DNA from: Verrucomicrobiota bacterium
GTDB lineage: Bacteria; Verrucomicrobiota; Verrucomicrobiia; Chthoniobacterales; JAFAMB01
DNA: 33,020 bases
Direction: 5' to 3'
Assembly: GCA_019237325.1 (NCBI GenBank)
Contig: JAFAHI010000690.1
Location: 1 to 33,020 of the forward strand
Made by a program: the position numbers and the translations under genes. The notes below the pieces were generated by a model. That model had not been told where the DNA came from. It did no database searches and was given only the letters and a program-made list of their open reading frames with translations. Shown here piece by piece: positions 21,275-22,990 of this stretch. The stretch's first letter is position 1, and each line of letters begins with the position of its first letter.

Positions 21275-21374
21275 CCACAATACGGAAAGGACACAGAGGA
21301 CACGAAGACAGAACCTAAATAACCGGATTCATTGCCTCAGTCTTTGTGTTCTTCGTGGTCTTTCCGTATTGTGG
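21275..21374. repeat. CCACAATACGGAAAG inverted repeat
   Basis: The left arm CCACAATACGGAAAGGACAC (21275 on, continuing with GAGGACACGAAGACA) pairs with the right arm 21341-21374 (TCTTTGTGTTCTTCGTGG..., ending TTTCCGTATTGTGG). It separates two minus-strand genes. Confidence 0.8.
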
Positions 21375-21441: not shown

Positions 21442-22329
21442 TTACGTTTGTGGCCCCGCTGCTTTGAAGAACGCTTTCAACTCCCGCGCCAATCGGTCGG
21501 GTTCCTCTTCCGGAACATAATGACCGCACGGAAACATTAGACCGCGCGTGTTCGGTGCGATCGGCAAGAGGTCGTCACCGATATTTGGAGTAGAACCTCG
21601 TTCACCTCCGATTGCCAGAACCGGGAATGAAAGTTTCGTTGCGGCCAGCGCTCGATTCTGTTCCATCGATTCCGGAACGGCCTGATAGAACTTGAAACTT
21701 GCTGCCATTGCGCCCGGGGCGGAATAGACTCGGGTGTACTCCTTGATATCTGCGTCAGTGAAGACATCCGGCCGCGCCGCCTTATTCTTAAAGAACCAGG
21801 TTATATAGGCTTCTTCACGCCCAGCGACCAGAGATTCCGCTAGCTCCGGCACCTGCTGGAAAAGAAAATGCCACCGGTTACGCGCCTCTGGTAGGCGGAT
21901 TTCAGGCCGAAGGCTGACTCCCGGGATGCCGGCGTCGATAAGAGTAAGCGTCTCAATTTTGGAGCGGAAGGTAGCAGCGCAAGTAAAGGCAACCCAAGCG
22001 CCGACGTCGTGCCCAACCAGGTGAAAACGATCAAGACTGAGCTCTGAAAGGAAAAGATCCAATCGTTTGGCGACAGTGGCGGTATCATAGCCATCGGGTG
22101 GGAGATCGGAATCGCCTTGGCCGGGTAGGTCGGGAGCGATTACGCGATAGTTGCCGGCTAGTGCAGGGATCACTTTGCGCCACGCATAAGAGCTCTGCGG
22201 GAAGCCCGAGAGCAGGATCACTGGGAACCCGGCGCCTTGAGACAAGTAATGGAAACGGAGGCCGGCGCTCACAACATCGGAATGCCGAAACGCTCCGGAA
22301 TGGTCAGCAGAAAGAGGATTAGTGCTCAT
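21442..22329 (-). CDS. Alpha/beta hydrolase, epoxide hydrolase/haloalkane dehalogenase type
   Basis: 295 residues. The oxyanion loop is LSGFPQSSYAWRKV (40-53), followed by APDLPGQGDSDLP, the nucleophile elbow GHDVGAW with Asp108 (aspartate rather than serine, as in epoxide hydrolases and dehalogenases), and the catalytic His in FPCGHYVPEEEP (His270). It would hydrolyse epoxide, halide or a similar ester bond through an aspartyl-ester intermediate. It is divergent from a CGNR regulator, and the 67-bp gap holds two similar dyads, so this hydrolase is probably that regulator's target. Confidence 0.88.
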   Translation of the reverse strand: MSTNPLSADHSGAFRHSDVVSAGLRFHYLSQGAGFPVILLSGFPQSSYAWRKVIPALAGNYRVIAPDLPGQGDSDLPPDGYDTATVAKRLDLFLSELSLDRFHLVGHDVGAWVAFTCAATFRSKIETLTLIDAGIPGVSLRPEIRLPEARNRWHFLFQQVPELAESLVAGREEAYITWFFKNKAARPDVFTDADIKEYTRVYSAPGAMAASFKFYQAVPESMEQNRALAATKLSFPVLAIGGERGSTPNIGDDLLPIAPNTRGLMFPCGHYVPEEEPDRLARELKAFFKAAGPQT

Positions 22330-22337
22330 TGGATTAT

Positions 22338-22354
22338 AACCTGTTAAACCGGTT
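22338..22354. promoter_or_regulatory. Operator 1 in the hydrolase/CGNR divergent promoter
   Basis: AACCTG-TTAAA-CCGGTT, one mismatch from a perfect dyad, nine bases before the hydrolase ATG. It overlaps the likely -10 (TATAAC on the minus strand, 22352-22357), which lies 15 bases from a consensus -35 TTGACA (22373-22378, minus strand). Confidence 0.6.
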
Positions 22355-22376
22355 ATATGACTAGCGGATTGCTGTC

Positions 22377-22393
22377 AACCAGTTATACTGGTT
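22377..22393. promoter_or_regulatory. Operator 2 in the hydrolase/CGNR divergent promoter
   Basis: AACCAG-TTATA-CTGGTT is a perfect dyad with the same layout as operator 1, centred 39 bases away. It ends three bases before the CGNR ATG and contains a TATACT -10-like sequence, so the CGNR transcript may have almost no leader. Confidence 0.6.
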
Positions 22394-22396
22394 TTT

Positions 22397-22990
22397 ATGA
22401 GTCAACCCGCAACCAGCCCGGGCCGCCCCCGTTCAATGGAATTCCGATTGGGCGACCGCAGACCCTGCATCGCTTTAGTCGCGACTTTAGGGGACCGCGG
22501 AATGCCGGAGCCGTTGGAGCGGATTCCTGATCCGGAAACCCTGGCTCGCTGGTGTGTGGAAGGCGGATTCTTGCCGCTATCGCCAAGAATCTCCGTGGCC
22601 GAATTGGCTTCGGCGCGCCTACTGAGAGAAGCAATCTATCGCGCTGCTTGTGCCGTGCGCCAGGCGCATAAACCTTTGTCGGAAGATGTCGCGACGATCA
22701 ACATCTGGGCAACGCGAGGCACCTTGGTGCCGGTGCTGACTTCCGATGGGCGGTCCGCGGACTGGAAAAGCGAGCGAACGCTTTCACCTGTCCTTGCCAC
22801 GATTGCCAGAGACGCCATTGACATGCTGACCGGCACCCCTGCAGCCCGGATCAAACTGTGTGCGGACTCGACCTGTCGCGGGCTATTTGTGGATGAATCC
22901 CGACCCGGTAAACGCAGGTGGTGTTCGATGAATTTTTGTGGGAATCGAGCCAAAAGCAGAACGTTCGCTCGGCGGCACCGCGAGGCGTAA
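22397..22990 (+). CDS. CGNR zinc-finger transcriptional regulator
   Basis: 197 residues. The N-terminal ABATE-like ligand-binding domain (about 20-145) is followed by the C-terminal CGNR zinc finger: LCADSTCRGLF (Cys155, Cys160), then RWCSMNFCGNRAKSRTF (Cys176, Cys181, CGNR 181-184). These proteins are thought to sense small molecules and bind DNA through the finger, where CGNR lies at the turn. Divergent from an alpha/beta hydrolase, with shared dyad operators between them, so it likely controls both itself and that gene. Confidence 0.92.
   Translation: MSQPATSPGRPRSMEFRLGDRRPCIALVATLGDRGMPEPLERIPDPETLARWCVEGGFLPLSPRISVAELASARLLREAIYRAACAVRQAHKPLSEDVATINIWATRGTLVPVLTSDGRSADWKSERTLSPVLATIARDAIDMLTGTPAARIKLCADSTCRGLFVDESRPGKRRWCSMNFCGNRAKSRTFARRHREA

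Follow-up and report, generated by a model that had tools for sequence, protein, structure and literature searches.

Two dyads between a CGNR regulator gene and a divergent hydrolase gene

The window, by which we mean the whole stretch of 33,020 nucleotides analysed here (contig JAFAHI010000690.1 of a Verrucomicrobiota bacterium), carries a leftward alpha/beta hydrolase gene and a rightward CGNR regulator gene on either side of an intergenic gap of 67 bp, 22330-22396 (Table 1). The regulator combines an ABATE domain (84.3 bits against a cut-off of 24.4, residues 22-146) with a putative zinc finger of the four-Cys treble-clef type (zf-CGNR, 60.5 bits against a cut-off of 24, residues 151-194), the cysteines of which are invariant in A2 and A3. 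Its only solved sequence relative found was 3h0n (Jann_2411), with an E-value of 0.0027 and an aligned part covering residues 129-194.

Table 1. Features of the divergent gene pair and its intergenic gap (positions in the window).
Feature	Position	Strand	Remarks
Alpha/beta hydrolase (295 aa), predicted Cif-like epoxide hydrolase	21442..22329	-	Pfam Abhydrolase_1/_6
Distal dyad O1, AACC-N9-GGTT	22338..22354	.	Adjoins hydrolase start; conserved in 4/4 copies
Proximal dyad O2, AACC-N9-GGTT	22377..22393	.	Conserved in 4/4 copies; layout in 12/14 clade loci
TATACT, -10-like hexamer within O2	22384..22389	+	7 nt before CGNR ATG; same place in 3 relatives
CGNR regulator, 197 aa	22397..22990	+	ABATE domain (PF07336) and zf-CGNR (PF11706)

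The best solved match of the hydrolase was Burkholderia Cfl2 (7jqz, E 1.3e-80), followed by Cfl1 and Cif (the latter with E about 1e-45), and judged by sequence its closest named kind is the Cif-like epoxide hydrolase. Alignment with Cfl2 placed the GHDVG motif at 106, WHF at 153 and FKFYQAV (FYQAV) at 212; with the Asp of GHDVG aligned, the first-pass annotation of this DNA was right, at the level of the motif, to call the protein an aspartate-nucleophile hydrolase. The HGXP motif reads SGFP, while Cfl2 has AGFP at that position (PMC8244358). On its other side, towards an aldo-keto reductase gene, the hydrolase gene is flanked by a long, imperfect inverted repeat (21275-21374), the 38-nt arms of which are 82% complementary and enclose a loop of 24 nt; it may be a small mobile or repetitive element.

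Both dyads of the gap, O1 (AACCTGTTAAACCGGTT, centre 22346) and O2 (AACCAGTTATACTGGTT, centre 22385), had zero mismatches, and their centres lie 39 bp apart. The arms of O1 extend to TATAACC/GGTTATA (22335-22357), and O2 ends 3 nt 5′ of the CGNR ATG. The first-pass annotation had thus located both dyads exactly, including the three bases between the second one and the CGNR start. Of its consensus, AACCNG-N5-CNGGTT, the outer AACC/GGTT arms were retained, but the inner NG/CN proved too strict and inessential, because the first dyad reads AACCTC... in relatives; the corrected unit is AACC-N9-GGTT.

Single matches to that original motif occurred at 18 places in the 6.05-Mb genome of origin versus 19 for the reversed control, so the motif alone, being at genome background, proves nothing. 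With one mismatch allowed, the window contained 4 matches versus a shuffle mean of 1.07, a value of 4 being reached in 3 of 100 shuffles. The paired arrangement (AACCNG-N7-GGTT, 22 bp apart) was found in one of 387 listed Verrucomicrobiota genomes, namely this one, and its reversed control in 0; that list does not include G002, G003 and G007, which are close relatives.

Conservation of the dyads with the gene pair

A protein search of 147 related genomes yielded three further copies of the CGNR gene, which were 83% (G003), 73% (G007) and, over the 48 residues of a contig-edge fragment used solely in this ortholog comparison (L015 of G002), 88% identical to that of the window. In all four copies of the gene pair, the gap carries two AACC-N9-GGTT dyads at precisely the same distance of 39 bp, and none of the 16 outer-arm columns varies. 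Pairwise identity amounted to 88-97% in the dyads versus 55-91% in the 22 bp between them, and the fourfold-degenerate sites of the first codons were identical at 6/19 (32%) to 16/22 (73%). Looking for loss of the dyads or of their 39-bp phase in relatives that keep the gene pair therefore failed to refute the operator reading. The notion of chance palindromes, with which the background level of single sites would agree, is already refuted by this conservation and is further countered by the recurrence, hold-out and controls described below, so that we give it practically no credence.

Within the own genome, the two window sites were the only ones with at most one mismatch to the ortholog consensus. 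A regulon extending beyond the gap was rejected, as sites with at most two mismatches were at background in this genome (12 forward and 3 reverse versus 10 and 12 for the control).

Promoter elements and the start-codon layout

A sigma-70 scan of 22280-22460 returned 0 promoter-like sites and no -35/-10 pair, and a terminator scan of the gap found none. Because of this result, promoters were guessed from -10-like hexamers that are present without a good -35, such as TATAAT on the hydrolase side and TATACT on the CGNR side. In view of the scan, the hydrolase -10 that the earlier statement places under one of the dyads is no more than putative. On the CGNR side, all four copies have TATACT 7 nt upstream of the start codon (ATG, or GTG in G003). 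As the usual distance from a -10 to the start point is 6-8 nt, the message would start at the start codon itself.

The same layout of half-site, N9, half-site, 2-3 nt and in-frame start codon occurred in 12 of 46 CGNR loci (sampled as described below) versus 3 of 1227 control frames, a count that leaves out L027 and L116 (contig ends). In the clade of the window's protein it was present in 12 of 14 loci, the exceptions being L044 and L051. The last six bases of the N9 spacer are mostly -10-like (TATACT, TATAGT, TAAGGT, TATATT, CAAACT, CAAGAT). This layout predicts that the CGNR messages of the clade would be leaderless and self-controlled.

The position of the proximal dyad also bears on the direction of control. 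CGNR might bind the dyads but activate, or activate the hydrolase gene while repressing itself, thereby opening promoters that have no good -35. Such a role would fit the outcome of the sigma-70 scan, as well as the several long-type loci (4/49, control 0.0) in which a dyad spans a -35-like GTCA and a -10-like hexamer. In 12 of the 14 clade loci, however, the proximal dyad lies over the predicted -10 and transcription start and runs up to the start codon, which is the usual place of a repressor site, and we regard activation as unlikely.

Similar dyads at other CGNR genes

Upstream AACC-N9-GGTT dyads were also found at CGNR genes with 36-42% identity on plasmids of Streptomyces, Tsukamurella, Sphingomonas and Sphingobium, often as two dyads of which one directly precedes the start codon, and likewise at a paralog in G003 (L022). 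A Sphingomonas morindae plasmid (L043) has four AACC-N9-GGTT sites upstream of 2001 (-176, -138, -60 and -19), in a region bounded by the CGNR gene on one side and, on the other, by a divergent lipocalin gene that is followed by SDR and alpha/beta hydrolase genes, which would make it a natural region with four operators.

The wider sample was drawn from PF11706 searches of Verrucomicrobiota genomes and plasmid records and from tblastn hits, and comprised 73 distinct genes, 48 of them less than 60% identical and 46 after dropping L087 and L079 (improper CGNR frames); L011 and L013, apparently the same contig (both 34604 bases), were counted once. A scan of IMG/VR for CGNR relatives found none. 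CGNR genes are rare in Verrucomicrobiota, with 8 of 387 genomes at E 0.001 (5 above the cut-off), and this genome has five.

In the roughly 200 nt upstream of the domain in the 46 loci, AACC-Nk-GGTT occurred at k=8 in 3, k=9 in 7 and k=18 in 5 loci, with single loci at k=17 and k=19, two at k=28 and few elsewhere, versus 0.0-0.4 per spacing in 487 control windows of the same loci. Half-site variants at N9 were TCACC-N9-GGTGA (L059 group), TCACG-N9-CGTGA (L047) and CCACC-N9-GGTGG (L042). AACC-N8-GGTT was present in L061, L066 and L016, and wider spacing in TTACC-N19-GGTAA (L024 group) and in the AAC-type half-sites of L052, L036 and L035. Moreover, L105 and L085 have a divergent finger type together with wide-spaced CTCACGG/CCGTGAG dyads, possibly a third half-site specificity.

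With the half-site model (H)AC(C/T/G), peaks appeared at k=9 (12 loci, control 1.0) and k=18 (12 loci, control 0.9), with k=8 and k=19 raised (4 loci each). A dyad at k=8, 9 or 18-20 was found in 31 of 46 loci versus 4.7 expected from controls, a count that is partly circular because the model was drawn from most of the scored loci. In a raw ranking of tetramer dyads over 48 loci, GCCG-N6 (9 loci) and CGCC-N8 (8) came before AACC-N9, which was third with 7 (shuffle mean 0.33, largest 3 in 60 shuffles); as GC-rich dyads top such raw counts, the comparison with controls was made by motif and spacing. Sequence-blind 6-bp arms were in excess at k=18 (15 versus 4.9), k=5 (11 versus 4.4) and k=20 (10 versus 4.4), smaller elsewhere, and at 177 versus 128.4 over all spacings. 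Without the half-site model, the excess is thus spread over more spacings and the spacing signal becomes much weaker.

Loci fetched after the rule had been fixed were scored with the rule unchanged. All three unrelated ones (33-48% identical to the nearest earlier locus) had a dyad at N18 or N19, namely two N19 dyads in Pantoea (L141), N18 in L138 (with a second, weaker N18 that scores 4.6) and N19 in L139, and both related ones (L137, 71%, and L134, 83%) fitted as well. Non-evaluable were L136, with a truncated frame and no fitting dyad, and L135 and L140, which gave no gene. The 87-aa open frame of L136 (G675) that holds the CGNR finger has no intact ABATE part and appears to be a copy that was truncated or broken. 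The half-site continued as NGTCA in 15 of 49 loci (the 46 plus the three unrelated hold-out loci; control 0.78) and did so in both spacing classes, as if one kind of half-site served both.

Dyads like those of the gap therefore occur at CGNR genes that are unrelated and lie beside other genes. Neighbours across these loci include hydrolase, epoxide hydrolase, MFS transporter, aminotransferase and ectoine hydroxylase genes, and because they differ from locus to locus, what the loci have in common is the CGNR gene. In 6 of 22 annotated CGNR regions the next gene is an alpha/beta or epoxide hydrolase, divergent in L046, L067, L128, L129 and L141 and downstream in L049, and a divergent hydrolase frame is also present in L052 and L053.

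Dyad spacing and the CGNR protein tree

The spacing class of the dyads follows the CGNR protein tree. When 49 proteins were labelled short, long or none, the tree required 15 changes versus a shuffled mean of 23.0, and a value as low was reached in 0 of 200 shuffles; support is low for many of the inner branches (24 of 46 drawn open). By the automatic rule, the 14-row clade of the window's protein (support 91/89, drawn open) held 10 short, 2 none and 2 long, and a nine-row clade (98/90) in which most fingers read D.TK held 6 long and 3 none. The rule called the dyad absent in 15 of the 49 rows. Its labels were kept for L045 and L062 (long) and for L065 and L126 (none), though each has a start-codon N9 dyad.

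These patterns weigh against two further readings. Dyads alone do not identify the protein that binds them, and a regulator encoded elsewhere might have the CGNR gene as a mere target. Yet the same kind of dyad recurs at CGNR genes in several phyla with different neighbours, its spacing tracks the CGNR phylogeny, and the only good matches in the own genome are the two window sites, all of which makes a foreign regulator improbable. Alternatively, the dyads might act as RNA hairpins in translation control or decay, since their folding energies of -7.0 and -5.5 kcal/mol are more favourable than those of almost all shuffles, and since their arms co-vary across the family (AACC/GGTT, CACC/GGTG, CACG/CGTG). 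Spacings of N8/9 and N18/19, which are one helical turn of DNA apart, have no reason in RNA, and O2 itself would not be transcribed because the likely -10 lies inside it, upstream of the predicted start point; a role as hairpins therefore seems even less probable than a foreign regulator.

A model for control by the CGNR protein

The proposal that the gap offers a DNA target for a CGNR protein is supported, as a prediction, by conservation and by recurrence at unrelated CGNR genes, and the dyads are very probably docking sites of the CGNR zinc-finger protein. Given their place and conservation, a dimeric repressor is the simplest account, and we think it likely that they are operators through which a dimer of the neighbouring CGNR protein represses both its own gene and the divergent hydrolase gene until a ligand releases it.

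Specifically, we infer that a CGNR dimer would use its two zinc fingers to read inverted AACC half-sites some 13 bp apart. On O2, this dimer would cover the start point and the -10 of a leaderless promoter that drives its own gene, leading to autorepression, while on O1 it would lie over the start region of the divergent gene for the predicted Cif-like epoxide hydrolase and repress it. A small molecule, probably an epoxide or a related electrophile removed by the hydrolase, would then bind the ABATE domain and free the DNA.

With somewhat less assurance, but still on balance, we favour extending this reading to ABATE-CGNR proteins as a whole, which would be local self-regulators with a readable operator code around the promoter -10, in which inverted (H)AC(C/T/G) half-sites, often continuing as NGTCA, are set at N8/9 or, exactly one helical turn wider, at N18/19 depending on the clade, and with leaderless messages in the short-spacing clade. 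If true, the operators, and hence the target genes, of most members would be predictable from sequence. As the same kind of site recurs at distant CGNR genes in several phyla, the family gains predicted, testable targets, and a predicted operator at a fixed place beside the start codon opens it to direct bench tests. The two spacing classes in turn raise the structural question of how one dimer fold spans half-site distances of 13 bp and 23 bp.

Comparison with known systems

Self-repressed divergent local repressors of the TetR or MarR type have two dyads in a short divergent gap, and the logic of the system in the window is the same. Its DNA-binding fold is a different one, one of its operators is joined to the start codon of a gene whose message is predicted to be leaderless, and the dyads of the CGNR family come in two spacing classes that differ by one helical turn.

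The structure of Jann_2411 (PDB 3H0N) gave the CGNR/ABATE family its name in 2009; the dimer has a putative joint DNA site, DNA binding itself being a proposal (PMC2954205). Jann_2411 has the same two domains as the regulator in the window, but the part of that report drawn on here gives no operator, target gene or ligand for it. No operator of a CGNR/ABATE/DUF1470 protein is named in the open-access PMC literature searched, where the matches were the Jann_2411 structure paper, related papers from structural genomics and unrelated ones.

The closest parallel is the CifR-cif system of Pseudomonas aeruginosa, in which a divergent TetR repressor gene, sites in the gap and release by epoxide are described (PMC8244358), two sites being used according to the title of a work cited there; Burkholderia cfl1 and cfl2 likewise lie near TetR genes (PMC8244358). 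Both systems combine a divergent regulator gene with sites in the gap and a Cif-like epoxide hydrolase, the sites and the kind of enzyme being predictions in the case of the window. CifR, however, is a TetR protein, whereas the regulator in the window is of the ABATE-CGNR type, and the epoxide response described for CifR is only inferred for the window's gene pair. By analogy, the circuit is thus predicted to work like CifR-cif without being a member of that TetR circuit, which suggests that at Cif-like epoxide hydrolases a second regulator family has stepped into the role of the TetR proteins.
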